Source: Arenibacter arenosicollis
Lineage (GTDB): Bacteria > Bacteroidota > Bacteroidia > Flavobacteriales > Flavobacteriaceae
Direction of reading: 5' to 3'
DNA: 64,000 nt
NCBI RefSeq assembly: GCF_014397245.1
Contig: NZ_JACLHY010000008.1
Coordinates: 62,001-126,000 of the forward strand
Position numbers and translations under genes: made by a program. This document shows positions 10,694-31,085 of the stretch, in pieces (within the stretch, counting starts at the first letter, position 1; the number at the start of each line of letters is the position of its first letter). The notes under the pieces are model-generated. The model ran no database searches. It was not told where the DNA came from and was given only the letters and a program-made list of their open reading frames with translations.

Positions 10694-12004
10694 TTAATCG
10701 ATCAAGCCAAATACTCTTGGTAGCCATAAAGATAGTTCCGGCACATAGGTAAGGATCAACAATACGGTAGTCATCGCTGCCAATAAAGGCAATAATGGCT
10801 TTATAACTTTTGTGACCGGTACTTTGGCTACACCACTACCTACGAAGAGCAGCGTTCCTACAGGAGGGGTACATACCCCAATACATAAATTGAGAACGAT
10901 TACCATTCCAAATTGAACCGGATGCATTCCCAATGCCATTACTACCGGTAAAAATATAGGTGTAAAAATAAGTACCGCCGGGGTCATATCCATAAAAGTA
11001 CCCACAACAAGTAAAGTGATATTAATAAACAGCAACACCAACAAGGGGTTCTTTACAGATTCCAAAAGGAAGCCTGTTAATGACTGCGGAATGGATTCAA
11101 AAGAGAACAACCAGGACATGGCCATGGAAGTTGAAATCAAGAACATAACAATAGCTGTTGTCTTGGCACTGCGAAGAAGAATAGGCCTAAAATCGGCAAA
11201 CTTTAATTCCTTGTTTACGAAGCCCAATAAAACAGCATAAACTACGGCAATTGCCGCAGCTTCCGTAGCCGTAAAAATTCCAGCAACGATACCACCCACT
11301 ACTATTACCAATAGGGTTAAACTTAAAATAGCATTTTTAAAATCAATGAACAGCTTTTTAAAGCTCACTCTTTCCTCCTTGGGCAAACCTTTTTTTCTGG
11401 CATACAAATAGACCATGAACATAATGGCCAGTCCCACCAATAATCCTGGTATATAACCTGCAATAAATAATGCAGCCACCGAAGCGGTACCTCCACTGGC
11501 CAAGGCAAATATTATTAATACATTACTGGGTGGTATTAAAAGCCCGGTAGTGGATGCACTAATATTTACAGCTGCACTAAACTCCCTGGGATAGCCATCC
11601 TTTGCCATTTTCTCTGTCAAGGTACTCCCAATAGCAGATGCAGCCGCAATGGCCGATCCGGAAATGGCCCCGAACAACATAGCGGAAATTATATTAACGT
11701 ATGCCAATCCCCCGGGCAAACTTCCTATAAGTGATTTTGCAAAGTCGATCAAACGATTGGCAATGCCTCCCCGGTTCATTATTTCCCCGGCCAAAATAAA
11801 GAAGGGGATGGCCAGTAATGCAAAATTATCGATACCTGTTGTCATTCTCTGACTAACAGTGGTCGTAGCGGGCATATAAGCTATATTGATCAGTAAGGTA
11901 ATCGTTGTAGATATACCAATGGCATATGCCACAGGTACGCCATAGGCCAACAAGCCCATGAAACTAATAAACAATACTATTATACTTATGGTTTCAATAC
12001 TCAT
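10694..12004 (-). CDS. dctM: TRAP transporter large permease subunit (DctM)
   Basis: The 436-residue protein is the large membrane component of a tripartite ATP-independent periplasmic transporter, which imports an organic acid using the sodium or proton gradient. It is hydrophobic along its length, with the DctM features AIPFFILAGEIMNRGGIANRLIDFA, GAISGSAIAAASAIGS and the IPPSNVLIIFALASGG re-entrant segment. It overlaps the end of dctQ by 11 bases, so the two are translationally coupled. The genes before it process hexuronates, so glucuronate or galacturonate is the likely cargo. It is the last gene before the terminator at 10634-10667. Confidence 0.95.
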   Translation of the reverse strand: MSIETISIIVLFISFMGLLAYGVPVAYAIGISTTITLLINIAYMPATTTVSQRMTTGIDNFALLAIPFFILAGEIMNRGGIANRLIDFAKSLIGSLPGGLAYVNIISAMLFGAISGSAIAAASAIGSTLTEKMAKDGYPREFSAAVNISASTTGLLIPPSNVLIIFALASGGTASVAALFIAGYIPGLLVGLAIMFMVYLYARKKGLPKEERVSFKKLFIDFKNAILSLTLLVIVVGGIVAGIFTATEAAAIAVVYAVLLGFVNKELKFADFRPILLRSAKTTAIVMFLISTSMAMSWLFSFESIPQSLTGFLLESVKNPLLVLLFINITLLVVGTFMDMTPAVLIFTPIFLPVVMALGMHPVQFGMVIVLNLCIGVCTPPVGTLLFVGSGVAKVPVTKVIKPLLPLLAAMTTVLLILTYVPELSLWLPRVFGLID

Positions 12005-12482
12005 TGTTGTTGGCGTTAAAGGTTATTTTAATGTGATACACGGAAAAGAAAATGATCATAAGGCCGCAAATTGGCACTATGGCATAAACATACCCAAGTG
12101 GCACTAACAATGCCGGGGACAACTGTCCCAACTTTAGTGTGGTGTAAACCAAATTACCTCCTCCAATAACCATAATAATCAAGGCAAAAACCGCCATAAC
12201 CACCTGTATTATTCTATGTCTCCTTTTTTGCTTGTCCGCTGGAAGTTTGGACAATAAAAAATCCATGGAAAGATGGCCTTCTTTCTGTCCATTGATATAG
12301 GCAGCACCCAAAACCGTTAACCATATCAATGAAAATCTGGCGAATTCTTCTGTGAACGAGCTGGATTGCCCCACTACGTACCTTGAGACTACCTGCCATA
12401 CCACGTCAAGCACCAATAAACTATATATAAGTACTAACAATCCCTCAATGGCCCTATTCAATATTCTATACGTCGTTTGCAT
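11994..12482 (-). CDS. dctQ: TRAP transporter small permease subunit (DctQ)
   Basis: A 162-residue inner-membrane protein with four hydrophobic helices and the DctQ core ARFSLIWLTVLGAAYINGQKEGHLSMDFL. It partners the DctM protein to form the TRAP permease. Its ATG overlaps the dctP stop by one base (TAATG arrangement at 12480-12484), and its end overlaps dctM by 11 bases, which ties the three genes into one translational unit. The role follows the neighbouring hexuronate genes. Confidence 0.93.
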   Translation of the reverse strand: MQTTYRILNRAIEGLLVLIYSLLVLDVVWQVVSRYVVGQSSSFTEEFARFSLIWLTVLGAAYINGQKEGHLSMDFLLSKLPADKQKRRHRIIQVVMAVFALIIMVIGGGNLVYTTLKLGQLSPALLVPLGYVYAIVPICGLMIIFFSVYHIKITFNANNNEY

Positions 12483-13483
12483 TATTGATTGTTGATTTCT
12501 TCGATTATTTTTTTCATCTTGGGATCCTTCATCAATCCCTCCAAAATTGGCTTCGTTTTTTCAACAAAGGGACTTTTATCCGGATTATAGATTTCCACAT
12601 TGGCCTCTTTTAAGATTTTCATACCCTCCTCCACGTTTTCCTTCCAATATACTTTTTGTTTCTTCACACTTTCATCTGCCGCCTCCTGCAACCATTTTTT
12701 TTCAGTATCGCTAAAGGTATCCCAAAACTTGGTACCCACTACTACGACGTCCGGTACCATACTATGCTCGTCCAGTGTATAGAATTTACACACCTCATAA
12801 TGATTGGAAGTTACAAAGGAAGGGACATTGTTCTCCGCACCATCCACTACCCGTTGCTGAAGAGCGGTATAAAGTTCCCCATAGGCCATTGGAGTGGCGG
12901 AACCACCCAGATCGTTTACCATGTTAACGGCCATTTGATCGTTCATAACCCTAATCTTTTTTCCCTTTAAGTCCTCTGGGGTTTTTATAAAGCCGTCCAA
13001 GGTATAAAAGCTTCTACTACCTGCATCATAGAAACAAAGACCCCGAAGCAGAAATTCGCTGCCTCCCTCCAAAAGTTCCTTTCCTATTTTCCCCTCCAAT
13101 ACATTGAACATATGCTCGCTGTCCCTAAATAAATAAGGTACTCCCAAGACCCTGTATTCCGGGGCAAAACTGGACATTGCGGCCGCACTTACCTTTGTCA
13201 TGGCCACACTGCCGATCTGCAGCAGTTCCAAAACTTCCCTTTCTGTACCCAACTGCCCATCTGGAAATATTTTGATCTGCAACTTTCCTCCTGATTTTTC
13301 ATTAAGGGCCTCTTGCATGGCCACGATCCCTTTATGGACAGGATGTGTAATAGGCAAGGAATGGGCGAAGAATAAAGTTTTGTGATTTGTTATATCAGAA
13401 CAAGAGTATAGCCCTAAACACGCCAAAATCCCAATGGCAACAATAAATTTTCTCCCTAGGGTTTTATAATCCTGCATATACAT
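12482..13483 (-). CDS. dctP: TRAP transporter substrate-binding protein (DctP), lipid-anchored
   Basis: A 333-residue extracytoplasmic binding protein of the DctP family. The N-terminus has a hydrophobic signal with a lipobox ending GLYSCSD (Cys about residue 28), so it is probably a lipoprotein and not a free periplasmic protein. Family features include FAHSLPITHPVHKG, the RVLGVPYLFRDSEH segment, DLKGKKIRVMNDQM with the conserved arginine that binds the substrate carboxylate, and GELYTALQQRVVDGAENN. It feeds the DctQ/DctM permease encoded immediately after it. A 158-base gap with a perfect 14-base palindrome (13498-13511) separates it from uxuA, so it may have its own control in addition to read-through. 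Confidence 0.94.
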   Translation of the reverse strand: MYMQDYKTLGRKFIVAIGILACLGLYSCSDITNHKTLFFAHSLPITHPVHKGIVAMQEALNEKSGGKLQIKIFPDGQLGTEREVLELLQIGSVAMTKVSAAAMSSFAPEYRVLGVPYLFRDSEHMFNVLEGKIGKELLEGGSEFLLRGLCFYDAGSRSFYTLDGFIKTPEDLKGKKIRVMNDQMAVNMVNDLGGSATPMAYGELYTALQQRVVDGAENNVPSFVTSNHYEVCKFYTLDEHSMVPDVVVVGTKFWDTFSDTEKKWLQEAADESVKKQKVYWKENVEEGMKILKEANVEIYNPDKSPFVEKTKPILEGLMKDPKMKKIIEEINNQ

Positions 13484-13497
13484 TTTGTTTATTCGGT

Positions 13498-13511
13498 CGT
13501 TAACGTTAACG
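13498..13511. promoter_or_regulatory. Perfect palindrome upstream of dctP
   Basis: CGTTAACGTTAACG reads the same on both strands and has a central CG, the geometry of LacI-family operators. It sits 15 bases before the dctP start, in the widest gap of the lower half of the operon after the one before the SDR gene. Its sequence differs from the operator-like site in front of susC, so it may be bound by another regulator. Confidence 0.4.
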
Positions 13512-13641
13512 TAATTATCGTTTATATTTGATTTCCAAACCTTAAAAATACTCTTTTTTTGAACTTTAGCAATAATTCCTTACAATTCTAGCCAAATAAT
13601 TGCGCCTTCCATAAAAATCTCCACTCTATTTTAAATTTTCA

Positions 13642-14844
13642 TTAAGTAGCTTTCATAAGCATTTCCCTAATGCCCTTTTCCAGGCCATAGAGCTCGGCCA
13701 TACCTATGGCTCTGCCAATCAGGGAGTATCCGGAGTAGAACTCATCCTTTCTTTTCTTGTCATCCAACAATACATGGCCATGATCTGGCCTAATGGGAAT
13801 TGCCACCTCTCCAAGACCACTATTTTGCCTTCTTAGTTGCTCATTAACAATAGCCTCCATTAACTTGGGCATGGGTATGGAACCATCTAAATGTGCCGCT
13901 TCATAAAACTTACCATCTTCCTCCCTAGATACATTTCTTAGATGTAGAAAATGAATTTGAGGCCCAAAATCCCGAATAATCTTAACAAGGTCGTTGGTAC
14001 CAACAGCCCCTAAAGATCCTGAGCAAAATGTTAATCCATTACTGGGAGACGGAACACAATCCAGAATAAATTTTAAATCTTCGTAAGTCGATGCAATACG
14101 GGGAATACCAAATACAGGAAATGGTGGGTCATCTGGATGCAAAGCCATTTTTACACCCAACCTTTCGGCCTCCGGAATAACCGATTTTAAAAAATATGCT
14201 AGATTTTCCCTGAGGACCGATTTTTTAATCTTACTGACCTCCTCAAGGGTAGACCTAAAATCAGCTAGGGCAATGGCCTCCTTGGACCCTGGCATCCCAG
14301 CCAAAATAGCACTTTTTAGCAGCTCACGTCCCTGATGGTTCAGTGTATTATAATAATGTTTGGCCTTTTGGACCATTTCATCACCATAGACCTCAGCTGC
14401 CCTATCCCTTTGCAAGATGAACAAATCAAACGCAGCAATAGCCACAGGATCGTACAACAAACTTATTGCCCCAGTTGGAAGCTCAAAATTTAAATTAGTA
14501 CGGGTCCAATCAATCAATTGCATAAAATTATAGCAGACTACCTTAATTTTGTTCTCTGCCAAATTCTTAAGGGTCTCAATATAATTATGAATGTAGATGT
14601 CCCTTTCGGGCAAACCGTATTTAATAGCCTTATGGATATTAACACTTTCCACTACGGACCATTCCAGGCCGTTGGACTCAATTTCTTTTTTAAGTTCACC
14701 TATAATCTGTGATGACCAAACCTCACCAATGGGCACTTGATGGCAAGCAGTTACTACTCCAGCAACACCAAGCTCCTTGATATCCTTTAAGGACACTCCA
14801 AAACTAGGTCCGAACCACCGTAGAGTCTTCTTTAAATATTGCAT
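13642..14844 (-). CDS. uxuA: D-mannonate dehydratase
   Basis: UxuA dehydrates D-mannonate to 2-keto-3-deoxygluconate in the cytoplasm, the third step of glucuronate breakdown. The 400-residue protein has the UxuA landmarks: RWFGPSFG start, VTACHQVPIGEVW, EWSVVES, HPDDPPFPVFGIPRI, FCSGSLGA (metal-site cysteine), HLRNVSRE, and IPIRPDHGHVLLDD near the C-terminus. Its start is 3 bases after the stop of the SDR gene, which would supply mannonate. The isomerase UxaC that starts the pathway is encoded at 27-29 kb. No KDG kinase or aldolase is in the window. Confidence 0.95.
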   Translation of the reverse strand: MQYLKKTLRWFGPSFGVSLKDIKELGVAGVVTACHQVPIGEVWSSQIIGELKKEIESNGLEWSVVESVNIHKAIKYGLPERDIYIHNYIETLKNLAENKIKVVCYNFMQLIDWTRTNLNFELPTGAISLLYDPVAIAAFDLFILQRDRAAEVYGDEMVQKAKHYYNTLNHQGRELLKSAILAGMPGSKEAIALADFRSTLEEVSKIKKSVLRENLAYFLKSVIPEAERLGVKMALHPDDPPFPVFGIPRIASTYEDLKFILDCVPSPSNGLTFCSGSLGAVGTNDLVKIIRDFGPQIHFLHLRNVSREEDGKFYEAAHLDGSIPMPKLMEAIVNEQLRRQNSGLGEVAIPIRPDHGHVLLDDKKRKDEFYSGYSLIGRAIGMAELYGLEKGIREMLMKAT

Positions 14845-14847: not shown

Positions 14848-15669
14848 TTATACTCCGGAAAAAGAACTAAATCCACCGTCGATTTCATAAATACTTCCAG
14901 TAACAAATGAAGAAGCATCACTAAGTAGATAGTGTACCATTCCGTTAAGTTCAGATGCATCACCAAAACGTCCCATTGGAGTATTAGTGATAATTTTTTC
15001 GCCCCTATCCGTAAAGGAACCGTCTTCATTAGTCAACAGTCTTCTATTCTGATTTCCGATAAAAAACCCAGGAGCAATGGCATTTACCCTGATCTTATCA
15101 CTAAATTTAGAGGAAAGTTCATTGGCCATCCACTTGGTGAAAATATCCACTCCGGCCTTGGCCATGGAATATCCCAACACTCGTGAAATGGTCTGTTTGG
15201 CTGCCATAGATGAAACATTTACAATGGAGCCAAATCCTTGTTTTGCCATAATTTCACTTAATACAATTGTAGGAATTACGGTACCGAATAAATTTATATC
15301 CACCACTTTTTGGGTATCACCAAGTTCAATATCGTAAATCGTTTGATCTGGTTTCAAAGTGGCTCCGGGAATGTTACCTCCTGCCAAATTAACCAAACCG
15401 TCCAACCTCTTAAACTGAGTGATTATAGTGTTCTTCAATTCGGTTAATTGCTTTTCATTCATTACATCCAGAACGAACAAATGAGCACTATTAGTACGAA
15501 TTTCATTTAATTCTTTGCATTTTTCTTCCAGCTTATCCAAGGATCTACCCAAGAGCAATACCTTGGCTCCATTTTCCACAAGATATTTGGCAATTGACCC
15601 TCCTAAAGTTCCAGTTGCACCGGATAAGGCATATATTTTATTTTCAATCGAAAAAAGTTTACTCATCAA
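14848..15669 (-). CDS. SDR-family D-mannonate oxidoreductase (fructuronate reductase)
   Basis: A 273-residue short-chain dehydrogenase. The cofactor loop is SGATGTLGGSIAKYL (residues 16-30), followed by NLAGGN, the catalytic serine in NVSSMAAKQ and YSMAKAG with the YxxxK pair. It ends with the usual FVTGSIYEIDGGFS. Classical UxuB belongs to a different family, but SDR enzymes take the fructuronate reductase role beside uxuA in many Bacteroidota and Firmicutes. The 3-base spacing to uxuA strongly supports that role. A 2-keto-3-deoxygluconate dehydrogenase (KduD-like) role is the main alternative. Confidence 0.82.
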   Translation of the reverse strand: MMSKLFSIENKIYALSGATGTLGGSIAKYLVENGAKVLLLGRSLDKLEEKCKELNEIRTNSAHLFVLDVMNEKQLTELKNTIITQFKRLDGLVNLAGGNIPGATLKPDQTIYDIELGDTQKVVDINLFGTVIPTIVLSEIMAKQGFGSIVNVSSMAAKQTISRVLGYSMAKAGVDIFTKWMANELSSKFSDKIRVNAIAPGFFIGNQNRRLLTNEDGSFTDRGEKIITNTPMGRFGDASELNGMVHYLLSDASSFVTGSIYEIDGGFSSFSGV

Positions 15670-17314: not shown

Positions 17315-18691
17315 CTAAACTTTTACAAAGTCAGTCCCATAAGGCTTTCTCTGTTCCCTGTGCAACATGGCGTTGGCCTCATTATCATTAATAAACATCT
17401 CTTTCTCGTTGTCCCATTCCAATTTTCTATCAAATTGCATGGCAATATCACTGATCAGACAAGTTACGCATGCCTTGTGCCCTTTTTCAATTGGCGAAAT
17501 TGGGGCTTTTCTTGTTTTAATGCAGTCCAACCAGTTCCCGTGCTGATCATCGATCTTCTCCAAATTGATCTCATTCTCACCAATTACCGATTCCAATATT
17601 TTAGGATCGGAGGCATTAAGGGCTTTACTGCTCTTTTCCTGATCCACAGGATCGGAGGCTGAAGCTTGATAAGCACCTCGGGATACAAAGATCCAACCAT
17701 CGGTACCTTCATAACGTATTCCGTTGGTATACCCGCCACTGGTGTAGACCGTAATTCCGTTGTCATATTCGTGTTTTACAAAGAAATCGCCATGTACATT
17801 CCACAAGCCAGATTTCGGGAATTCTGCCAAGGCCTCGACAGATTTTGGCCCTGTTAGCTCGGTATCCATTCCCCATGCCGCTGAATCATAATGGTGTTGT
17901 CCCCAACCTGTGATCATTCCTGCACCGTAACTTCTTAGGCGAAGCCACCCCGGCCTACTATAACCCTGTTGAGGGTGCACACCAATTTCGGTATAAGGCA
18001 CTTCTGGGGTTGACCCCAACCACATATCAAAATTTAAATTTTTAGGTACCGGCATTGCAGGTGCTTCCGGTCCGGCAGGATCTCCTGGAAGTCCGATCTT
18101 AACCGTATGTATTTTACCAATGCGACCATTTCTGACCAGCTCGGCAGCCACCCTAAATTGGGGCATGGCTCTTTGTTGTGTTCCAACTTGAAGTATAACT
18201 CCCGTTTTTTGAACGGCCTCACGCAACTGTTGACCTTCCCTCACGGTTAGCGATGTAGGTTTTTGCAGGTATATATCCTTTCCAGCCAATGCCGCTTCCA
18301 TTGCCGGCTGGGAATGCCAGTGGTCAGGGGTACTGATAACCACGGCATCTATGTCCTTATTGAGTAACATTTCACGATAGTCATCGTAGATTTTGGTATT
18401 CATGTATTTATCCTTCCCCGTTTTCTCCTTGTAGAACTTATCCACCAAAACCTTGGCATCGGCTGCCCTATTGGAATCCAGATCACATACGGCAACATAA
18501 CGGGATTGGTCGAACCTGATGGTATCGTGAATATCATGGTCGCGGGCAATACGTCCACAACCAATCTGTCCTATATTAATCTTATTGCTCGGTGCGTTCT
18601 TTCCAAATACACTTGCAGGTACTATAGTTGGAAATCCAACCACGGCCGCAGTGGTCAATAGGGAGTTATTAATGAATTTTCTTCTTTGCAT
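17315..18691 (-). CDS. Tat-exported Gfo/Idh/MocA oxidoreductase
   Basis: A 458-residue protein starting with a twin-arginine signal (QRRKFINNSLLTTAAVVGFP, cleavage probably near residue 30). The dinucleotide-binding domain follows: INIGQIGCGRIARDH, YVAVCDLDSNRA, STPDHWHSQPAMEAA and DIYLQKPTSLTVREGQQL, where QKP replaces the usual EKP. The later HYDSAAWGMD region carries the family histidine. Tat export fits a protein folded with NAD(P) before secretion. Known relatives include GH109 glycosidases, which use a tightly bound NAD and have the same length and signal, and 3-keto-forming glycoside dehydrogenases, so either activity is possible. Confidence 0.85.
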   Translation of the reverse strand: MQRRKFINNSLLTTAAVVGFPTIVPASVFGKNAPSNKINIGQIGCGRIARDHDIHDTIRFDQSRYVAVCDLDSNRAADAKVLVDKFYKEKTGKDKYMNTKIYDDYREMLLNKDIDAVVISTPDHWHSQPAMEAALAGKDIYLQKPTSLTVREGQQLREAVQKTGVILQVGTQQRAMPQFRVAAELVRNGRIGKIHTVKIGLPGDPAGPEAPAMPVPKNLNFDMWLGSTPEVPYTEIGVHPQQGYSRPGWLRLRSYGAGMITGWGQHHYDSAAWGMDTELTGPKSVEALAEFPKSGLWNVHGDFFVKHEYDNGITVYTSGGYTNGIRYEGTDGWIFVSRGAYQASASDPVDQEKSSKALNASDPKILESVIGENEINLEKIDDQHGNWLDCIKTRKAPISPIEKGHKACVTCLISDIAMQFDRKLEWDNEKEMFINDNEANAMLHREQRKPYGTDFVKV

Positions 18692-21906: not shown

Positions 21907-24900
21907 TTAAAGACTTAAATCAATTCCAAAGGTGAAAAACCTAGGTGTAGGCAAACTTGGATCAGTACTTCCATTGGAATTTCTTCCGTCTATATTGGTT
22001 GGCTCTGGATCGTAAAAGTCCCAATGAGGTGCATAAACCGCAACATTTCTAGCGTTGGCATATAACCTAAGACTCTGCAAAGACAATTTTTCAAGAAGGG
22101 GTTTTGGAAATCTATAAGCAATGGTAATATTACTTAAACGGATAAATGAAGCATCTCTCCATATGGCAAAATTAGAACTACCATCACTTGAAAACAATCT
22201 TGCATAATCGTTAATTGGATTATCCGGTGTCCAGAATGGGGTTTGAATGGAGTTGGTCCTATCTATAAAACCGTTTCTGTTTTTTGCTTCATTAAACACT
22301 CTTTTCTGACCCCAATTGGAATAAACCTCAAAGGAAAAATCAAAATTCTTTAGCATAGTGAACCTATTGGACATCGCCCAACTGAAGCGTGGTGATCTAT
22401 GTCCCTGAAAAACATTATCATCCACGGTAAAATCCCCACTGTTATCAACATCGTTTATTTTCCAATCACCTGGAAAAACGCCATACTCAGCAGCTTGGGC
22501 AGCTTCATTGGTCTGCCAGATACCTATGGCTTCCTGACCCCAAATAACGTCTGTGGCCTGTCCTATAAAACGCTGATTTGTAATGTCATCCAATTCATTT
22601 CCATTTTCATCAAGATCTCCATATAATTTCCTGATTTTGTTTCTGTTCAAAGAGAAATTAAAACTGGTATTCCATTGGAAATTCTCCCTATTATAATTTT
22701 GGGTGGCCAAGGTAAATTCGAGACCTTTATTTTCTATTTCTCCCAAATTGGTAGTTACATTGTTAAAACCAATAATATTGGGCAACTCCCTAGTAACTAT
22801 AAGATCATTGGTAATATTTTGGTAAGCCTCAATAGAACCTTCAACCACTCCGTTGGCCAAACTAAAATCCAACCCTAAATTGGTAGCTTTGGTACGCTCC
22901 CATCTTAGCTCTGTATTTTCCTGAGTTCCATTGTCAAATGTAGGCACGGTAATAACATTGCCCCCGGCATCCACATTTAAATATTTATTTGCACCAAGTC
23001 TAGATAATGCAGTAAACCTTCCTATATCCCTATTCCCGTTTTCCCCATAAGACAATCTTAGTTTTAGGAAATTAACAAATTCCGAATTAAAAAAAGATTC
23101 ATTGGAAATGGTCCAAGCACCTGCTATGGAAGGAAAATATGCTCTTTTATTGTTGGTTCCAAAGGCCGAGTAACCATCCCTACGCATGGTCATCGTTAAA
23201 AGGTAGCGGGAATCGTAATTATAATTCAATCGCGTCATTACTGCATCGCCCGTACTTGTTTCGTCCTCACTATCCACTGTTTGCACGGTACCCAATTCCA
23301 AGGCACTATAGCCCAAGGCATCACTAGGCTCAAATGTATTGGCTCTAGCACGGGTGAAATAACTTTGATATTTTTCCCCATACACCAAAAACATTAAATT
23401 AAAGGAGTGTTTATCTATAGTCTTGTCCCAACGTAAAATGTTATCCAACTGCCATTCATTAATCTTGGTCACCTGTCTTACAGCAGAACCTACTACGTTT
23501 TGTGGGCTAGCTGCAGATGCATGATTGTAATATTCCCGAAATTCCAAACGATTGGTATACCCTACTTCATAAGAGAAACCCAATGGCAATTTTAACTTGG
23601 CATACACTCTAGAATTAAAGGTATGGTCCAAGTCTATACGATCATTAAACTTCTGAGCCAAAAATGCGTTAACAGCACCCGCCCCGTTATCGTCTTGGGG
23701 ACTTAAGCGTATATTACCTTCATCATCGAATTCCGAACCCCAGGGACTAGATCTTTCTATTTGACCACGGTCTGCGGCAATAAAACCTTCATTACGTTTT
23801 GCAAATTGGGTATTCATCCCAACAGTCAGCCAATCGGTGATTTTAGCATCCAAATTTAATCGCGATCGCAATGCCTCAAATTTTTCTCCATTTATTATAC
23901 CTTCATTGGAGGTTCTACCAATGGACCAATAATAATTTAATCCACCGTTTCGTCCGGAGATACTGGTATTGATATCATTTCGAAAACCTTTCTGCATTAT
24001 CCTATCGTACCAATTAATACTATTTCCAGCCAAATAATTTTCTATTTCTACATCCTGAAACCCAATTCTGTTCAACCAGGCCCTAGTGGGGTCTCCAGCA
24101 GATCCATCATAGGCCAGCCATTGATCTAAGGTTACACCAGATGGCAAGTTGCTGGGATCATCATATCTTCCCGGATTATCTATAGTATTCTGGGGATTGA
24201 TACTTTTAAATACTTCAGTTCTCCAGTTCACATAGCCTTGTGCGTCGTATGGCCGCTCCTTATAGGCGTCAGATGCCATTCCCACACTAGTATTGATATT
24301 TATGGTAGGCTTATCACTGGTTCCTCTTTTTGTGGTTACCAAAATAACACCACTTGCCCCCCTTGCTCCATAAACGGCGGCAGAACTGGCATCTTTCATC
24401 ACATCAAGCTTATCGATGTCAGAAGGAGCAATATCGGACAGGTCCCCATTATATATCATTCCGTCCACTACTATCAACGGACTTGAACCCGCACTAAGAC
24501 TATTATTACCTCGAATTCGGATTTGACTAGTACCTTTAGGGGAAGCGGAAAGCCCAATGCTAAGACCAGCCACATTCCCTCTCAAAACATCGGTCACCGA
24601 GTTGGTGGATTGGTCGGAAAGTGCGGCTGCATCCACTTGTGAAATAGCCCCTGTTAGATCCTTCTTTTTTACTGCGCCATAACCTACCAATACTACTTCA
24701 TCCAAGGTAGATGCAGTAGATTGCATAGTAACATTAATTTGAGCGTTACCATTAATTGGTATTTGCTGCTCTTCAAAACCAATATAGCTAATAGTTAATG
24801 TGGCATTTTGGCCGGCCACCTCAAAACTAAAATTTCCGTCAAAATCAGAAACCACCCCATTGGTTGTTCCTTTTTCAATAATGGATGCGCCGGGTAGCGG

Positions 24901-25035
24901 AACACCAAACTCGTCTACTACGGTTCCCGAAACGGTGAAACCATCTTGCCCATAAACGGACATTGAAAAAAATGTACAGAGAAGCGTTAGAATTAATAAC
25001 GCCCTGCACCTAACTTTTTTAAATAAATTTCTCAT
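21907..25035 (-). CDS. SusC/RagA-family TonB-dependent outer-membrane transporter
   Basis: A 1042-residue TonB-dependent channel. A signal peptide is followed by the CarboxypepD_reg-like domain (about residues 31-115: FTVSGTVVDEFGVPLPGASI, DFDGNFSFEV), the TonB-box region DEVVLVGYGAVKKKDLTGAI, and a plug domain ending IRIRGNNSL, VVDGMIYNG, DKLDVMKDASSAAVYGARG. A 22-strand barrel follows, to the C-terminal aromatic residue set of FFTFGIDLSL. There is no STN domain, in line with control by the neighbouring LacI regulator and not by FecR. It is the first gene of the ten-gene minus-strand series. Promoter and operator candidates lie at 25111-25151. Confidence 0.95.
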   Translation of the reverse strand: MRNLFKKVRCRALLILTLLCTFFSMSVYGQDGFTVSGTVVDEFGVPLPGASIIEKGTTNGVVSDFDGNFSFEVAGQNATLTISYIGFEEQQIPINGNAQINVTMQSTASTLDEVVLVGYGAVKKKDLTGAISQVDAAALSDQSTNSVTDVLRGNVAGLSIGLSASPKGTSQIRIRGNNSLSAGSSPLIVVDGMIYNGDLSDIAPSDIDKLDVMKDASSAAVYGARGASGVILVTTKRGTSDKPTININTSVGMASDAYKERPYDAQGYVNWRTEVFKSINPQNTIDNPGRYDDPSNLPSGVTLDQWLAYDGSAGDPTRAWLNRIGFQDVEIENYLAGNSINWYDRIMQKGFRNDINTSISGRNGGLNYYWSIGRTSNEGIINGEKFEALRSRLNLDAKITDWLTVGMNTQFAKRNEGFIAADRGQIERSSPWGSEFDDEGNIRLSPQDDNGAGAVNAFLAQKFNDRIDLDHTFNSRVYAKLKLPLGFSYEVGYTNRLEFREYYNHASAASPQNVVGSAVRQVTKINEWQLDNILRWDKTIDKHSFNLMFLVYGEKYQSYFTRARANTFEPSDALGYSALELGTVQTVDSEDETSTGDAVMTRLNYNYDSRYLLTMTMRRDGYSAFGTNNKRAYFPSIAGAWTISNESFFNSEFVNFLKLRLSYGENGNRDIGRFTALSRLGANKYLNVDAGGNVITVPTFDNGTQENTELRWERTKATNLGLDFSLANGVVEGSIEAYQNITNDLIVTRELPNIIGFNNVTTNLGEIENKGLEFTLATQNYNRENFQWNTSFNFSLNRNKIRKLYGDLDENGNELDDITNQRFIGQATDVIWGQEAIGIWQTNEAAQAAEYGVFPGDWKINDVDNSGDFTVDDNVFQGHRSPRFSWAMSNRFTMLKNFDFSFEVYSNWGQKRVFNEAKNRNGFIDRTNSIQTPFWTPDNPINDYARLFSSDGSSNFAIWRDASFIRLSNITIAYRFPKPLLEKLSLQSLRLYANARNVAVYAPHWDFYDPEPTNIDGRNSNGSTDPSLPTPRFFTFGIDLSL

Positions 25036-25110: not shown

Positions 25111-25141
25111 CAAATCTAAATAATTGCATTTTATTACGCAA
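25111..25141 (-). promoter_or_regulatory. Candidate promoter of the hexuronate susC operon
   Basis: On the minus strand bases 25118-25111 read TAGATTTG, an exact TAnnTTTG box. A TTG at 25141-25139 lies 20 bases further upstream and fits the -33 element. Transcription would start near 25104, about 70 bases before the susC ATG. Confidence 0.5.
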
Positions 25142-25151
25142 CCGATTGCGT
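25136..25151. promoter_or_regulatory. LacI-family operator in the susC-lacI intergenic region
   Basis: ACGCAACCGATTGCGT has 6-base perfect outer arms (ACGCAA and TTGCGT) around a central CG, the classical layout of LacI/PurR-type operators. It covers the candidate -33 element of the susC promoter, so binding would repress the operon. The LacI-family gene itself starts 160 bases away on the other strand. Confidence 0.6.
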
Positions 25152-25279
25152 TATTATGTTGGCAATTTTTAACTAAAAAAATCACTTTTGTTGAATTTAT
25201 ACGGTAAAATCCCTCTAATTTCACATATTTTACTCCCTAAATTAAATTGCACTTTAATAATAAAATTTTATTTGTATTA

Positions 25280-25302
25280 TTGTTGCAGAGTTTGTGCAAC
25301 AA
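25280..25302 (+). promoter_or_regulatory. Inverted repeat in front of the lacI-family gene
   Basis: TTGTTGCA (25280-25287) and TGCAACAA (25295-25302) are perfect 8-base arms with a 7-base spacer, ending 8 bases before the regulator ATG. It may be an autoregulatory operator or a leader hairpin that hides the start codon region. Its GTTGC/GCAAC half-sites partly resemble the GCAAC core of the 25136 site. Confidence 0.4.
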
Positions 25303-25310
25303 TTTATAAT

Positions 25311-26324
25311 ATGGACAAGAGAATTACCATTTACGATTTGGCAAAAACGCTGGGTGTTTCGGCCGGAACCGTAAGCAGGAGCCTAAACGACCATCCCTCC
25401 ATAAGCCAAAAAACCAAGGACCGTGTAATCTCAAAGGCCAATGAACTGGGTTACAAAACCAATAAATTTGCAGTAAACCTCAGCACACAGAAGTCCAATA
25501 CCATTGGAGTCATTGTCCCCAAACTCAATTCTATTTTCATGTCCACCGTTCTGGCGGGGATAGAAAAAATAGCCAATGAGGCCGGTTATAATTTGATTAT
25601 AAGTCAGTCTTTGGAGTCTATGGAAAAAGAAAAGTTAAATGCAAAAACGCTCTACGATAGCGGAGTTGATGCCCTTTTGGTATCCTTGGCCTACGACACT
25701 ACGGACTTTGATCATTTTGCAAATTACATTAGAAACAAAATACCACTTATATTTATTGATAGGGTGCACAATTTGCCCAATTGTTCCACCATAATAATCG
25801 ATAACAAATTGGCCGGATTTGAGGCTACAGAGCATTTGATAACTCAGGGCTGCAAAAATCTTCTGTATATTAGTGGCAATCTAAAACGTAACGTTTATTC
25901 CGAGCGACTGAAAGGATTTAAGGAAGCTATGGCCAAACACAATTTAAAATTTAACCAGGCCAATTTACTGGAATCCGATCTTGGCCCAAGTAGTGTTAAA
26001 GATGTCATTGCGCATATCAATAATAATGACATACCCATTGATGGACTGTTCGTAGCCAACGACACCTTTGCCGCCCATTGTATTAAAGAATTAAAAAAAG
26101 AGAAGTATAAAATTCCCAGTGACATTAAAATAATTGGGTTTAACAATGACCCTATCTCGGAATTGGTCACCCCAACCCTTAGTACCATAAATTATCCAGG
26201 GTACGAATTAGGGGTTTTGGCCGGACAAAGTGTTATTAGCCATTTAAACGGCGGCATAGACTTGCATCCCGCAAACTCCATTACCCTTAGACATAAACTG
26301 ATAATAAGAGAATCTACACTTTAA
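25311..26324 (+). CDS. LacI-family transcriptional regulator
   Basis: A DNA-binding repressor. From the ATG at 25311 the protein has 337 residues: the LacI helix-turn-helix (ITIYDLAKTLGVSAGTVSRSLND, then ISQKTKDRVISKANELGYK) and a periplasmic-binding-protein-like effector domain (TIGVIVPKLNSIFMSTVLAGIE, PLIFIDRV, GLFVANDTFAAHCIKEL, IIGFNNDP). The frame is open 41 codons upstream to 25188, but that part is not conserved and ends just where the HTH begins, so I reject it. It faces the susC operon divergently and is followed after 12 bases by the ThuA gene. The effector is probably a hexuronate or catabolite. Confidence 0.93.
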   Translation: MDKRITIYDLAKTLGVSAGTVSRSLNDHPSISQKTKDRVISKANELGYKTNKFAVNLSTQKSNTIGVIVPKLNSIFMSTVLAGIEKIANEAGYNLIISQSLESMEKEKLNAKTLYDSGVDALLVSLAYDTTDFDHFANYIRNKIPLIFIDRVHNLPNCSTIIIDNKLAGFEATEHLITQGCKNLLYISGNLKRNVYSERLKGFKEAMAKHNLKFNQANLLESDLGPSSVKDVIAHINNNDIPIDGLFVANDTFAAHCIKELKKEKYKIPSDIKIIGFNNDPISELVTPTLSTINYPGYELGVLAGQSVISHLNGGIDLHPANSITLRHKLIIRESTL

Positions 26325-26336: not shown

Positions 26337-27254
26337 ATGAACAAAACAGTTTACTCCTTATTTACATTCCTTTTTGTTGGAACAATTTTCGCCCAAAGCC
26401 TAGAAGAAATACCCATAGATGACCAATGGCTTGCCAAAATTGAATCACTTGCCCCTACCGCACCTAGAGTTGCGGCAGAAACCAAAAAAATATTGGTATT
26501 TTCGCAGCATACCGGTTTCTACCATTGGACCATTCCACACAACGACGAAATGCTGAAAATCCTAGCGAGGAAATCGGGAGCATTTGAGATTACTATTGCA
26601 CACGACGTTGATAGTTTTGATAAAAAAAATCTAAAGCAATACGATGCCATAATTTTAAACAATTCCAATCCGGCCGGACCTAAGCGGGACTTGTTCTGGG
26701 ACCTACTAAAGAAGAACACGACCTTGAATGACAACACCATTGCCAAATTGGCGGCAGATTATGAAAAGAATTTAATGGATTATGTTGCAAAGGGTGGTGG
26801 ATTAATGATCATGCACGGTGCAATCACTGTACAAAACAATTCCAGGGAATTCAGCAAAATGACTGGGGGCAGCTTTGACTACCATCCCAAACAACAGGAA
26901 ATGCACCTAAAGGAGGTTAATGCCAATCATCCAATGGTACAGGCCTTCAAAGGAAAGGGCTTTACCCACGTGGATGAACCCTATTTTTTCAACAATGCCT
27001 ATTCTGACTACAACTTTAGACCTTTATTGTACATAGAAGCTGACAAATTGGAGGGTTTACGTAAAGAAGTTACCGACAACACAATCTACGTGTCCTGGAT
27101 AAAACGACACGGTAAAGGCAGGGTGTTTTATAGCTCCCCTTCACATAACGCCCAGAGCATGGATAATCCGGAATTGCTTCAATTCTTTTTGGATGGTATG
27201 CAATACGTAGTGGGCGATTTAAAATGTGATGATAGCCCTATAGGAAAACCTTGA
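26337..27254 (+). CDS. Secreted ThuA-domain protein
   Basis: A 305-residue protein with a cleavable signal peptide (MNKTVYSLFTFLFVGTIFAQS). The ThuA fold, a glutamine-amidotransferase-like domain, is recognised by KKILVFSQHTGFYHWTIPHNDEML, YDAIILNN, GGGLMIMHGAI, GGSFDYHPKQ, HPMVQAF and ISW-like YVSWIKRHGKGRVFYSS. In rhizobia ThuA works with the Gfo/Idh dehydrogenase ThuB in oxidising trehalose to its 3-keto form, but the ThuA reaction itself is unclear. Here it is transcribed with the LacI regulator and faces an operon with two Gfo/Idh genes, which repeats that association. It ends before a bidirectional terminator. Confidence 0.87.
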   Translation: MNKTVYSLFTFLFVGTIFAQSLEEIPIDDQWLAKIESLAPTAPRVAAETKKILVFSQHTGFYHWTIPHNDEMLKILARKSGAFEITIAHDVDSFDKKNLKQYDAIILNNSNPAGPKRDLFWDLLKKNTTLNDNTIAKLAADYEKNLMDYVAKGGGLMIMHGAITVQNNSREFSKMTGGSFDYHPKQQEMHLKEVNANHPMVQAFKGKGFTHVDEPYFFNNAYSDYNFRPLLYIEADKLEGLRKEVTDNTIYVSWIKRHGKGRVFYSSPSHNAQSMDNPELLQFFLDGMQYVVGDLKCDDSPIGKP

Positions 27255-27284
27255 CATAATCCCTTATCAATATTATAACATCAA

Positions 27285-27322: not shown

Positions 27323-27368
27323 TTCTTGCTATTAGTAGCAGCCTTGAATAACCACTTCCCAAAAAGTC

Positions 27369-28775
27369 TTATTTATTAAAATCGAAAAAGTTTTTGGCGT
27401 TATAATAAGAAATATCCGATACAATTTTTCCCAGCAATTTTTCATCTGCCGGTAACTCTCCATTTACTACATCTTTACCTATTAAATTACATAAGATCCT
27501 TCTAAAATATTCGTGTCTAGGAAAAGACAAAAAGCTCCTGGAATCGGTCAACATTCCCACAAAACAACTTAAAAGTCCCATATTGGAAAGCACATTCATT
27601 TGTTTTTCCATTCCGTCCTTCTGATCTAAAAACCACCATCCAGAGCCAAACTGCACCTTTCCTCTTACGCTACCATCATTAAAATTACCAACCATGGTAG
27701 CTATAACTTCATTATCGGAGGGATTAAGATTGTAGATTATAGTTTTGGCCAATTGATCTGTTCCGTCCAATTCATTTAAGAAACCGCTCAATGCACGGGC
27801 CTGTGAAAAATCTCCGATAGAATCGAAACCGGTATCGGGCCCCAATTTAGACAATAGCCTTTTATTATTGTCCCGGATGGCCCCTATATGAAATTGTTGC
27901 ACCCATCCTTTTTTATGATAAGTCCTTCCCAAAAATAGTAACACCTGTGCCTTGAAATATTGTACTTCATCAACAGTTAGTGCCTTACCGTCCAAAACTT
28001 TTTTAAATAGACTTTCAGCATCATAAGTGCCTTCCTTGAAATGATATAATTGCTCCAAACCATGGTCAGCAAGCCTTCCTCCTTGTTCATGGAAATAATT
28101 GATCCTGTTTTCCAAAGCAGCCAATAAATCTTTGAAAGATGTAATATTGATATTGGACGCTTCTCCCAATTTCTCCATATAGGCAACATATGCAGCTCCC
28201 AATTCTATTGCAAATGTCTTATCTGGACGGAAGGTTGGAAAAACTTTTGGCGTAATTCCTTTTTGCTTGATGTTTTTATGGAATTGAAGGGTGTCTATAG
28301 ATTCATCCGTAGTGCACAAAGACTCCACTTTTTGCTGCTGCAAAAGCCCTATAGTGTTGTGGGAAGGTTGTTGTAACATGGCAGATGTTTTCTCATAAAT
28401 TTCCTCTGCATTATCAGGCCCCAACAACTCTTGAATTCCAAAATAACGTTGCAATTCAAGATGCGTCCAATGGTATAAAGGATTCCTTACGGTATAGGGT
28501 ACAGTCTCCGCCCATTTGAGAAACTTTTCCTTATCCGTGGCATTTCCAGTTATATAGCGTTCATTTATCCCAAAAGCACGCATAGCACGCCATTTATAAT
28601 GATCACCGGCCAACCAGGCCTGACTTATATTTTCAAAAACCCGGTTATTGTCAATTTCTTGTGGAGGAAGATGATTGTGATAATCTATTATGGGCAACTC
28701 TTTTGCATAATTGTGGTATAAAGTTTTAGCAAAGTCGCTTTGCAAAAGAAAATCATCATTTATAAAAGTCTTCAT
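27369..28775 (-). CDS. uxaC: Glucuronate/galacturonate isomerase
   Basis: UxaC isomerises D-glucuronate to D-fructuronate (or galacturonate to tagaturonate) in the cytoplasm. The 468-residue TIM-barrel protein matches the family length and motifs: LPIIDYHNHLPPQEI at the N-terminus (metal-site HxH type), the DHYKWRAMRAFGI segment, TTDES, WVQQFHIGAIRDNN, GSGWWFLDQKDGM and MLTDSRSFLSFPRHEYFRRILC near the end. Together with the SDR and UxuA genes it completes the route from glucuronate to KDG. It follows the cytochrome c protein gene by 69 bases and ends at the terminator at 27285-27322. Confidence 0.96.
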   Translation of the reverse strand: MKTFINDDFLLQSDFAKTLYHNYAKELPIIDYHNHLPPQEIDNNRVFENISQAWLAGDHYKWRAMRAFGINERYITGNATDKEKFLKWAETVPYTVRNPLYHWTHLELQRYFGIQELLGPDNAEEIYEKTSAMLQQPSHNTIGLLQQQKVESLCTTDESIDTLQFHKNIKQKGITPKVFPTFRPDKTFAIELGAAYVAYMEKLGEASNINITSFKDLLAALENRINYFHEQGGRLADHGLEQLYHFKEGTYDAESLFKKVLDGKALTVDEVQYFKAQVLLFLGRTYHKKGWVQQFHIGAIRDNNKRLLSKLGPDTGFDSIGDFSQARALSGFLNELDGTDQLAKTIIYNLNPSDNEVIATMVGNFNDGSVRGKVQFGSGWWFLDQKDGMEKQMNVLSNMGLLSCFVGMLTDSRSFLSFPRHEYFRRILCNLIGKDVVNGELPADEKLLGKIVSDISYYNAKNFFDFNK

Positions 28776-28844
28776 CTTTTTCCGGATTTAATTTTTATTT
28801 TAATCTACGATCTTTATCACTAAATGTCGTTCTACTCTCTAAGG

Positions 28845-31085
28845 CTATTTTCCAATATGCTCATACAATTCCTCTTCTGTATACTCCATCCCGTCTTTAG
28901 ACTTGACATCGCGAAGTTCCTTTATTTTTTCAGGCTTTAAACCCTTAGGGTTAACAGAGAATGCATTGGTCACATAGGATATTATATCCGATATATCCTT
29001 ATCGGAAAGATTCTTATTATACTTAAGGCCTGGCATTTGATGATTCTCATCATACAATTCGCCTTTTATTTTCAAAGGACCTTTTAGGCCATGAAGAATA
29101 ATAAGCCCCAATTGTTCCAAATGCGTAGAAATATACTCTGACCCCACCAGTGGTGGTGCCAATCCGTGGATACCCTCCCCACTGGACGAATGGCAAGAAG
29201 CACATATTTGTCGGAACAGAATAGCTCCATTGGTCCTAGAATCTGCTCTTGCAATTTTTGTTGAATAAATATAATTAGGTTTGTCGTTTCGTTTACGCTC
29301 CACACTTTCGGTTGTTAGACTGGCGAGGTCCGAATCCTTAAGCTTATTAAATTGCCCAAGTTGGGAGTCAAGGACAGTAAGAACATCTTCCGATCCACTG
29401 ACAATCGCCTCCTGATAAATTTTCTTATCACTGTATTTATTCGCCAAATCGTAAATTATGGGAAAAAATACTTCCTGGTCGTATTTGGCCCAAATCCCCA
29501 TTGTTGTTGAAAGGTATAGGTCCAACATGGGCTCATTCCTGTTCAAAAGTTCGGCAAAAAGATCTTTTGCTTTGGGAACATTTTTGTCAGAGGCATACTC
29601 TTCCATAAGGACAATGGCATGTGATGCAGCTTCGGGATCACCACTTTGAGCTAACTCCTGCAGGAAGTCAAAAGAGAGTGCATTAAGTCCCTTTAACACA
29701 TAAAGGGCGTGCATTTGAGCCAATGGACTAGTATTGTCCAAAGCCATTTCTTTTAGTTCTGGCAGGGTTTCCTTATTATTTTTATGTATCAGATATTGTT
29801 GGGCACGATCGCGCACCCAACCATTGGCATCCTTCAATGATGCAACCAACTGGAATCCTGATAAAGTCTCAAGATCGGGAATGCTCCTCGCTGGTTTGTC
29901 TTTGCTTCGGACCCTTAAGATGCGACCATAATCCAGTATGGTGTCCAATTTTTTCTGGGCCGATATCTTTTTTAAATAAGGGCTTAAAAATGCATAATGT
30001 TGAATTACACCGCGGTGCATATCTACAACATACATATTCCCATCGGGGCCGGTGGCAAGATTTACCGGGCGGAACCCTTCATCCGTGGAAGCCAAAAACT
30101 CCTTTCCCTGCCACGCTTGCTTGGCCTCCACCCGATCCCCATAAAAAGATAGGATATTTCTTTTGATCAAATTGACCTCTGGAACGCATACAAAAACATT
30201 CTGGTCGTAATCTTCAGGAAACATCCCGCCCCTATATACCAATGGACCGCAGGCAGCCGTAACATTAACCAATAGACTATCCTGATTCAAAACCCCTTCT
30301 TCGTAACCCCGGTTTACAGAGGCAGCATGAAGGGGATAAACACGTTGATCTTTGGTCAAGGTCTCGTCCACTCCTTTTTTGGGAACAAAATATTTATTCC
30401 GGACCAATCTATTGGGCAGTATATGATCGCCCAATAGTTGAGTGGAATTGTTATTGTAATAAAGTCTTCCAAAATTGTCATGGGAAATACCCCATTGCCC
30501 TCTCTGGGTAGTAGGTTCTTTTTTCCACACTCCATTCGTACGCTGATATCTGAAATTGGATTTGGCATTATATATCCAATTATCCAAATTCATCATTAAA
30601 CCATTGGGCTGATGTTCCGGGTTACCCACTGTAGCATAAAGTGAATCTACAAGAACCCTGTTTACAGGTTTATCATTCTCAATTTCCACAAACCACAGGT
30701 TAGGGGATTCTGCATACAAAAGTCCCCCGTATACCAAAGCCAAAGCTCTAGGCATCACCAAACTATCCAAAAAGGTTTTGGCATGGTCCATAATTCCGTC
30801 CTCGTCAAGATCCTCAAGAATTTTAATAGATCCACTTGGCAAATCTTCCCCATCACCTTCCAAATTGACCATAAACCCAGTCATTTCAGCTACCCAAATC
30901 CGTCCCTTAGAATCGAAATCTATGGCGACCGGTGCTGTCAAAAGGGGTTCGGACGCCACCATTTCCAAGTCAAAACCATCTTCTACCGTATAATCCTCCA
31001 GTGAAATCCGAGGTTCATCATAGGAAGGTTTACATGAAATAATGGTAATTGAAAGGGAAAGAAAAAAACAAAATAATAATCTCAT
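28845..31085 (-). CDS. PVC-type membrane-bound dehydrogenase lipoprotein with C-terminal cytochrome c
   Basis: A 746-residue lipoprotein (lipobox ITIISCKP, Cys19). Residues about 30-410 form a beta-propeller of the PVC-type glucose/sorbosone-dehydrogenase-like class (FDSKGRIWVAEMTGFM, ILEDLDEDGIMDHAKTFLD, LATGPDGNMYVVDMHRGVIQH). A HEAT-like helical part follows (DANGWVRDRAQQYLIHK, NTSPLAQMHALYVLKGL). The C-terminus carries one c-type haem: CASCH at 628-632 with probable axial Met684 in HQMPG. It should oxidise a sugar or similar substrate in the periplasm and pass electrons through the haem. The short spacing to uxaC suggests its substrate is connected to hexuronate glycosides, which is inference. 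Confidence 0.85.
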   Translation of the reverse strand: MRLLFCFFLSLSITIISCKPSYDEPRISLEDYTVEDGFDLEMVASEPLLTAPVAIDFDSKGRIWVAEMTGFMVNLEGDGEDLPSGSIKILEDLDEDGIMDHAKTFLDSLVMPRALALVYGGLLYAESPNLWFVEIENDKPVNRVLVDSLYATVGNPEHQPNGLMMNLDNWIYNAKSNFRYQRTNGVWKKEPTTQRGQWGISHDNFGRLYYNNNSTQLLGDHILPNRLVRNKYFVPKKGVDETLTKDQRVYPLHAASVNRGYEEGVLNQDSLLVNVTAACGPLVYRGGMFPEDYDQNVFVCVPEVNLIKRNILSFYGDRVEAKQAWQGKEFLASTDEGFRPVNLATGPDGNMYVVDMHRGVIQHYAFLSPYLKKISAQKKLDTILDYGRILRVRSKDKPARSIPDLETLSGFQLVASLKDANGWVRDRAQQYLIHKNNKETLPELKEMALDNTSPLAQMHALYVLKGLNALSFDFLQELAQSGDPEAASHAIVLMEEYASDKNVPKAKDLFAELLNRNEPMLDLYLSTTMGIWAKYDQEVFFPIIYDLANKYSDKKIYQEAIVSGSEDVLTVLDSQLGQFNKLKDSDLASLTTESVERKRNDKPNYIYSTKIARADSRTNGAILFRQICASCHSSSGEGIHGLAPPLVGSEYISTHLEQLGLIILHGLKGPLKIKGELYDENHQMPGLKYNKNLSDKDISDIISYVTNAFSVNPKGLKPEKIKELRDVKSKDGMEYTEEELYEHIGK

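Follow-up and report, generated by a model that had tools for sequence, protein, structure and literature searches.

Introduction

Nasseri et al. are reported to have described, in 2024, a 3-keto-glycoside pathway of the BT_2157-2160 type in Bacteroides, and in the ThuA/ThuB system of rhizobia a ThuA protein lies beside Gfo/Idh oxidoreductases and trehalose genes. Two reports (PMC10628242, PMC8563793) describe the Agrobacterium O-glycoside β-eliminase (OGE) and C-glycoside eliminase (CGE/DgpBC) pathways as an oxidation at C-3 followed by β-elimination, hydration and reduction, with Gfo/Idh enzymes involved and Mn-dependent TIM-barrel enzymes as the eliminases. The Pfam family DUF1080 (PF06439) is named '3-keto-disaccharide hydrolase'. 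Here we analyze a locus at positions 10694–31085 of a 64-kb stretch of the 5.4-Mb genome of Arenibacter arenosicollis (the window, which denotes that whole stretch). Genes for hexuronate catabolism lie there together with those for a DUF6807 lipoprotein, a Gfo/Idh oxidoreductase of the twin-arginine translocation (Tat) export type (GfoT), and a lipoprotein with a Gfo/Idh-like N-terminal domain and a PF16490 domain (GfoC).

The locus is real, conserved and regulated. We judge the chances to be about even that it serves hexuronate utilization with an exported oxidoreductive deglycosylation as its first step. Algal and plant matter is rich in uronic-acid glycosides, whose users are predicted in annotation pipelines by a search for hydrolases and lyases; if hexuronates are freed by oxidation, such genomes are currently misread.

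Results

A conserved core and a sister locus type

DUF6807 orthologues (threshold E ≤ 1e-30) were found in 46 of 397 genomes of the family. Two samples of window-type loci were compared: 41 family loci, comprising the window and up to ~40 kb around 40 others (G049, G110, G226, G307 and G308 were omitted), and the best 80 of 256 relatives in named genomes, which are hence the nearer ones and overlap in species with the family loci. GfoT and GfoC both occur within 6 kb of DUF6807 in 37 of the 41 family loci, with GfoT but no GfoC in one and neither in three; GfoT and GfoC lie ~8 kb from DUF6807 in G216, and DUF6807 stands alone before DctPQM in G247. GfoC is found near DUF6807 in 68 of the 80 named loci, GfoT alone in nine and neither in three (in L153 GfoT was missed by the script, though it is seen in the counterpart locus G011). 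Arenibacter accounts for each of the top 16 named loci, and every one of them holds GfoT, GfoC, ThuA, LacI, SDR, UxuA, UxaC, DctM and the haem protein, with SusC/D in 12; the other 64 hold ThuA in 54 cases and LacI in 25. Of the genes singled out by the initial annotation, a DUF6807–GfoT–GfoC core recurs across Flavobacteriaceae, in most cases joined by ThuA and frequently by LacI together with one conserved LacI-type operator, and the UxaC, SDR, UxuA and tripartite ATP-independent periplasmic (TRAP) transporter genes vary in their presence. That annotation left DUF6807, ThuA and the haem protein without a step; DUF6807 proves to be the most constant partner of the Tat-type Gfo/Idh, and ThuA stays without one.

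The A. arenosicollis genome holds two further DUF6807 genes, each near a Tat-type Gfo/Idh gene and a DUF1080 gene. When the 397 family genomes were searched with one of these paralogues, 33 of them contained matches, at 39 places altogether; at least nine of the places lie within 8 kb of UxaC, as compared by eye among the UxaC matches listed. Twenty-two paralogue loci were compared: the two own loci plus 20 chosen from the 37 other places, closeness to UxaC having been the reason for eight. In 19 of the 22, DUF1080 is no more than 3 kb from DUF6807; a labelled Gfo/Idh is present in 18, and both in 15; L245, L249 and L255 have a Gfo/Idh without DUF1080 nearby. An arginine pair was read in the Gfo/Idh of five (L203, L204, L236, L241 and L254). 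GfoC was found in none of the 22, the best profile match reaching 4.5e-6 and the three matches being other Gfo/Idh-like proteins. UxaC lies ~3 kb away in eight, those selected for its closeness. The DUF1080 set of L241 is accompanied by UxaC and by DctP, DctQ and DctM that are 65, 78 and 85% identical to those of the window, and that of L254 by an SDR and a UxuA (55 and 45% identical).

In window-type loci, DUF1080 lies within 6 kb of DUF6807 in one of the 41 family loci and in none of the 80 named ones. A strict exclusion of DUF1080 from these neighborhoods is nevertheless incomplete, given its presence farther out in seven family loci (up to ~20 kb a side) and four named loci (up to 10 kb a side). 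Four of these seven family-locus genes belong to cluster c45, one member of which is DUF1080/PA14 by Pfam, and three of the four lie upstream of the haem gene.

Two exported sets, one being DUF6807–Gfo/Idh–DUF1080 and the other DUF6807–Gfo/Idh–GfoC, thus have similar hexuronate genes beside them. Nothing else speaks as strongly for a 3-keto-type reading, or for GfoC as the substitute of DUF1080, an argument drawn from the 15 loci that hold both DUF1080 and Gfo/Idh. The extracytoplasmic oxidative release proposed initially is plausible, and better supported through these sister loci with their Gfo/Idh and, in some, UxaC, TRAP or SDR–UxuA genes; a glucuronide substrate, oxidation at C-3 and elimination of the aglycone would be its presumed particulars.

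GfoT, GfoC and DUF6807

GfoT is the most conserved core protein, with 70–97% identity to the window copy in most loci. Residues R3, R4, G44, G46, K144 (QKP), H266, H267 and D269 (QHH-D) are invariant in the 19 sequences aligned, and the arginine stretch presumably represents the Tat consensus. Judged by its motifs, GfoT would be an exported Gfo/Idh protein; its nicotinamide adenine dinucleotide (NAD)-binding and catalytic motifs are intact, in agreement with the BT_2158-type 3-keto-glycoside pathway.

GfoC, the sole PF16490 match in the genome, is closely related to a crystal structure labelled hypothetical (PDB 4oo3; E 5e-174). Its lipobox C16, P41 G42 H43 F44 H45 A46, K141 (ADKP), H244 and D247 are invariant in the 16 sequences aligned, and D40 occurs in 15 of them. 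The NAD loop GxGxxA is replaced by LDPGHFHA, and the N-terminus suggests export by the general secretion (Sec) lipoprotein route. Sec exports an unfolded chain without cofactor, whereas Tat can carry a bound cofactor. Given the changed loop and an export that brings no cofactor, GfoC is unlikely to be a simple NAD dehydrogenase. The assignment as a lipoprotein related to Gfo/Idh stands, but its nucleotide-binding loop is degenerate; the conserved DPGHFHA loop makes an ordinary second NAD dehydrogenase less probable, as does, by eye, the VFAPEG stretch before a Glu, which was taken as the end of strand 2 and has no acidic residue. An eliminase or a hydratase function for GfoC is a guess. A short Gfo/Idh in the paralogue locus L204 (13634–14638) begins with GMSGTLFHAPF, a partly altered nucleotide loop that recalls GfoC.

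DUF6807 is predicted to adopt a mutarotase-type supersandwich fold. The predicted fold resembles PL26, GH174 and a domain of α-mannosidase (Ams1), and GfoT shows a weak relationship (E 7e-9) to 2ixa, which we take to be a GH109 structure. One alternative is a hidden hydrolase or lyase: DUF6807 itself, as a supersandwich enzyme of a new kind, GH174- or PL26-like, would cleave the uronide, with GfoT and GfoC only modifying or repairing the sugar, or GfoT would be a self-contained NAD-dependent glycosidase acting in the GH109 manner. We consider a hidden cleaving enzyme of this kind unlikely. The identity of DUF6807 to PL26 and GH174 is 8–10%, its length is less than half that of PL26 and the Ams1 domain scores equally high. 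In the one open library searched, DUF6807 has one unrelated mention only, and nothing was found on '3-keto-disaccharide hydrolase' or 'PmoA family protein'.

Hexuronate catabolism and co-occurrence

Glucuronate isomerase (UxaC) and mannonate dehydratase (UxuA) at the locus both exceed curated cut-offs (NF002794, TIGR00695), and the SDR, which passes that of NF006132, is the likely fructuronate/mannonate reductase by its sequence. A search of the own genome found a single copy of UxaC, at this locus. The model for 2-keto-3-deoxy-6-phosphogluconate (KDPG) aldolase matches three places in the genome, one of them over its cut-off. At G000:C14 a PfkB-family kinase, a PF01081 aldolase and another UxuA copy (47% identity to that of the locus) lie together, close to a GMC oxidoreductase and a gluconate-2-dehydrogenase subunit 3, and the kinase would by its position be KdgK. 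The proposed passage of hexuronate through UxaC, SDR and UxuA is thus supported by the cut-off matches, the single UxaC here, and the PfkB kinase and KDPG-type aldolase elsewhere. In L261 (1850–5157), genes for a GMC oxidoreductase, a gluconate-2-dehydrogenase subunit 3 and a TIM-barrel protein lie a few kb from the PfkB kinase, aldolase and UxuA; they are possibly a second, flavin-based sugar oxidation set.

UxaC is present in 45 of the 46 DUF6807-positive family genomes and in 109 of the 351 DUF6807-negative ones; the control gene XylA (xylose isomerase) is present in 44 and 139, respectively. Among XylA-positive genomes UxaC occurs in 44 of 44 with DUF6807 vs. 96 of 139 without (p 2e-6), and among UxaC-positive genomes XylA occurs in 44 of 45 vs. 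96 of 109 (p 0.07), both uncorrected for genome relatedness. The link of DUF6807 to UxaC is stronger than that to a generic sugar gene, because UxaC stays associated given XylA and XylA is not significant given UxaC, yet it is not independent of lineage.

Regulation

A LacI-type palindrome, CGCAANCGNTTGCG, lies at 25137–25150; the window has two matches at up to two mismatches, with 0.77 expected. All 41 named loci that have LacI show a match of at most three mismatches in the corresponding gap, and in 32 of them the match has at most one; only two of 25 loci with ThuA and without LacI reach two mismatches. Random 400-base stretches of the same loci reach at most one mismatch in 7 of 600 cases, some of which may include the operator itself. 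At this stringency (at most one mismatch), 16 of the 17 matches in the 41 family loci (1.49 Mb) are directly upstream of the DUF6807 operon, and so are 32 of the 34 in the 80 named loci (1.44 Mb), the remaining two being inside genes. The seventeenth family match, in G001, precedes a second LacI–ThuA pair that faces a PSCyt/PSD1–DUF1501 gene pair. In G108 and G175, the operator is directly upstream of DUF6807 although they have no LacI gene next to it.

The electron module

The haem lipoprotein, in which C628, C631 and H632 are invariant in the 15 sequences aligned, is found in all 16 Arenibacter loci and in 16 of the other 64 named loci. In its place, 14 further named loci have a cytochrome c of 133–134 amino acids and a protein of the glucose/sorbosone dehydrogenase (GSDH) family (PF07995; one member was identified by Pfam, and the rest were assigned from their size, position and alignment). 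The two arrangements occur together in none of the 80. Because one or the other appears in part of the loci and never both, an exported electron outlet is a recurrent, optional part of the locus; the haem protein is optional, and the GSDH-family protein with free cytochrome c may be its replacement. The cytochrome parts of the haem protein and the free cytochrome c are homologous (E 3.5e-18). A homology between the propeller part of the haem protein and GSDH found no support: the hhalign probability against the GSDH profile was 1.7% (E 0.029), and the AF2 (AlphaFold2) model of the N-terminal domain was unusable (pLDDT, the model's confidence score, 43). Homology was seen in the cytochrome parts only. 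The search for pyrroloquinoline quinone synthesis gave no match in the own genome, nor in any control genome.

The order DUF6807–GfoT–GfoC–GSDH–cytochrome c, mostly with ThuA, is seen in L164, L177–L182, L184–L187, L195 and L198, from marine Flavobacteriaceae metagenome-assembled genomes and other uncultured Bacteroidetes; ParA/ParB lie behind the core in L179, the one such locus in which they were identified.

Organization of the locus and its surroundings

The genes named in the initial annotation were all recovered by open reading frame (ORF) and family scans (Table 1), and the limits 10694–31085 correspond exactly to the stop of DctM and the start of the haem protein. A minus-strand series is transcribed in the order SusC, SusD, DUF6807, GfoT, GfoC, SDR, UxuA, DctP, DctQ and DctM, with spacings that range from overlap to 165 bases. 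LacI and ThuA, 12 bases apart, had been described as facing this series; both are present, but they diverge from it and converge with UxaC. The pairing of the cytochrome c/PVC-type protein with UxaC was confirmed as a separate minus-strand pair (31085–27369). The solved chains nearest to DctP are 4n8y, 4x8r, 4ovr and 4n91, several of which are presumably hexuronate complexes.

Table 1. Features of the locus, with window coordinates and supporting matches.
Feature	Position	Strand	Evidence
DctM, TRAP large permease	10694–12004	-	PF06808 415 bits; TIGR00786 453 bits, over cut-off
DctQ, TRAP small permease	11994–12482	-	PF04290 91 bits
DctP, TRAP solute-binding protein, N-terminal signal and Cys (possible lipoprotein)	12482–13483	-	PF03480 261 bits
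UxuA, mannonate dehydratase	13642–14844	-	TIGR00695 446 bits vs. cut-off 200
SDR, D-mannonate oxidoreductase type	14848–15669	-	NCBIfam NF006132 'D-mannonate oxidoreductase' 312 bits vs. cut-off 281
GfoC, lipoprotein with Gfo/Idh-like N-domain and PF16490	15835–17211	-	PF16490 442 bits
GfoT, Tat-type exported Gfo/Idh oxidoreductase	17315–18691	-	PF01408 and PF19051; N-terminus MQRRKFI
DUF6807 lipoprotein	18761–19987	-	PF14100 222 bits
SusD	20046–21890	-	PF07980, PF14322
SusC-type TonB receptor	21907–25035	-	PF13715, PF07715
LacI-type operator CGCAACCGATTGCG, SusC–LacI gap	25137–25150	.	single exact match in 64 kb
LacI-family regulator	ORF 25188–26324, likely ATG 25311	+	PF00356, PF13377
ThuA, secreted	26337–27254	+	PF06283 121 bits; signal-like N-terminus
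UxaC, glucuronate isomerase	27369–28775	-	NF002794 608 bits vs. cut-off 387
PVC-type haem lipoprotein: DUF7133, HEAT, cytochrome c (CASCH)	28845–31085	-	PF23500 291 bits, PF00034; TIGR02604 177 bits

Pfam scans (as distinct from the CAZy library) of all 14 locus proteins recognized no glycoside hydrolase (GH) or polysaccharide lyase (PL) in 10694–31085, in agreement with the earlier statement that no conventional one is present. The closest glycoside hydrolase found is a GH92 gene at 40374–42635, 9.3 kb beyond the locus. DUF1080 has no match in the window and 26 elsewhere in the genome. The ThuA family (PF06283) has 11 matches in the genome, 10 of them over the cut-off; on contigs C3, C12, C20, C56 and C77, ThuA domains lie inside open frames of 1025–1171 amino acids, a size that fits a putative fusion to a larger protein such as a haem protein.

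On one side, the locus is flanked by aminoethylphosphonate genes (PhnW, PhnY-like and PhnA), and on the other by a response regulator and a putative sensor kinase. The 2-aminoethylphosphonate cluster (5194–10471) comprises a transporter, PhnW, a phosphonoacetaldehyde dehydrogenase-like protein just under its cut-off and the phosphonoacetate hydrolase PhnA, over its cut-off; in six of 16 Arenibacter relatives, too, the hexuronate locus is followed by PhnA. Farther on, a metallophosphoesterase precedes the GH92 gene (38429–42635). The genes at 42738–49398 (glutamine amidotransferase, Fe-alcohol dehydrogenase, aldehyde dehydrogenase, glutamine synthetase and amino acid permease) resemble what we take to be a γ-glutamylated amine pathway, and those at 56985–63946 (Gfo/Idh, TIM barrel, aldehyde dehydrogenase, sodium symporter and thiamine pyrophosphate enzyme) presumably inositol catabolism.

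In a Maribellus relative (L196, 8928–12194), the gene before DUF6807 belongs to the URO-D family and the one after it is another DUF6807; judged by gene sizes, L183, L189, L191 and L193 perhaps share this layout. No consistent substrate clue emerged from the neighbors DUF1501, PSCyt/PSD1, cupredoxin, HlyIII, penicillin amidase, DUF2264, URO-D, the GlcNAc-2-epimerase family and sulfatase.

Discussion

Starting from the gene content, conservation, operator and linkage documented in the sequences, and from the loss of the usual NAD motif in GfoC, we infer a scheme in which the substrate, the oxidized position, the order of the steps and the cleaving protein are all conditional. SusC/D, a dispensable part, would bring a glycoside of hexuronic acid, or an oligosaccharide with such an acid at its end, into the periplasm, where GfoT, exported by Tat with its nicotinamide cofactor loaded in the cytoplasm, would oxidize a ring hydroxyl, probably at C-3. 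The keto-glycoside would be handled by DUF6807 and GfoC, one of which would bind the sugar or open its ring and the other remove the aglycone and rehydrate the product; GfoC would occupy the place held by DUF1080 in the sister loci. GfoT would then return the hydride to the keto-sugar. When a turn is not redox-neutral, the haem lipoprotein (elsewhere GSDH and cytochrome c) could pass electrons to the respiratory chain; ThuA is assigned no step. Free hexuronate would be taken up by the TRAP transporter and converted by UxaC, SDR and UxuA, and then by KdgK and KdgA encoded elsewhere.

A bolder form of this proposal holds that DUF6807, GfoT and GfoC make up an exported machine of a new, three-part kind that cleaves uronosides by oxidation, that GfoC, having lost the usual NAD loop of Gfo/Idh proteins and acquired the invariant PGHFHA motif, is a new class of keto-uronoside eliminase/hydratase that replaced DUF1080, and that glucuronic acid is freed without GH or PL in marine and other Bacteroidota. 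We regard this form as rather doubtful.

Several observations weigh against exported oxidative cleavage. The core is separable from the hexuronate genes, because only 24 of the 64 non-Arenibacter named loci carry at least one of SDR, UxuA, UxaC and DctM (19 of the 37 with full flanks; many of the 64 end at contig edges). Much of the UxaC co-occurrence is the general gene content of sugar-eating genomes, because the control XylA is enriched too; this co-occurrence was therefore dropped as strong proof and gene linkage preferred. GfoT scores far below the cut-off of its best NCBIfam 'glycoside 3-dehydrogenase' model, NF058561 (127 vs. 750 bits), and the locus has no recognized TIM-barrel eliminase (PF01261), a family that only UxuA matches, marginally. 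Four of the 22 paralogue loci (L244 and L246–L248) have DUF1080 without a Gfo/Idh in the stretch. The operator (at most one mismatch) is found in none of the 22, nor upstream of the window's haem–UxaC pair, for which a shared operator was accordingly rejected. The open library searched gave no report of activity for any window-type core protein.

A different role for the exported module would be to act on hexuronate or some other sugar acid that is already free, by oxidation, epimerization or mutarotation, before TRAP uptake and without any glycoside cleavage. Pfam recognizes no cleaving enzyme, the lack of SusC/D in four of the 16 Arenibacter loci implies that the substrate can be small, and the GSDH/cytochrome c variant resembles a periplasmic aldose dehydrogenase. 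However, UxaC, SDR and UxuA take unmodified hexuronate, so that a prior oxidation would be purposeless, and the paralogous sets carry DUF1080, from a family named for 3-keto-disaccharide cleavage. We find this role quite unlikely.

The least probable alternative is that the genes are neighbors by convenience, the core acting on another glycoside, for example a sulfated one, and sharing its site with an independent hexuronate pathway: of the 64 non-Arenibacter loci, 40 show the core but no hexuronate genes within the stretch retrieved (18 among the 37 with full flanks), and a gene of sulfatase cluster c47 (one member Pfam-checked) precedes DUF6807 in G020, G050, G203 and G314, but UxaC, TRAP or SDR/UxuA are linked to both the GfoC and the DUF1080 type, and the association with UxaC survives conditioning on XylA.

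Should exported oxidative cleavage prove correct, DUF6807, PF16490 and secreted ThuA, families without an assigned step, would be placed in one common pathway and given a class of substrates that can be tested. The DUF1080 and GfoC locus types in parallel offer a natural comparison for finding the bond-breaking protein.

Comparison with known systems

With a classical SusCD locus for uronide utilization, the Arenibacter locus shares SusC/D, LacI with its operator, the TRAP transporter, UxaC and UxuA, but it has no GH or PL by Pfam. The predicted fold of DUF6807 is like that of PL26 rhamnogalacturonan lyase and GH174 fucanase, at the low identity given above. ThuA and Gfo/Idh proteins are common to this locus and the rhizobial ThuA/ThuB system; the Arenibacter ThuA is secreted, and hexuronate genes take the place of trehalose genes. 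Gfo/Idh enzymes are likewise shared with the OGE and CGE pathways, whose TIM-barrel eliminase is not recognized here. The Bacteroides BT_2157-2160 pathway is alike in having exported Gfo/Idh oxidoreductases within a Bacteroidota glycan locus. The Arenibacter locus differs from it in the absence of DUF1080 and of a TIM-barrel hydratase and in a GfoT far under the NF058561 cut-off, and has instead GfoC, DUF6807, ThuA and the haem protein, together with the genes for hexuronate catabolism.

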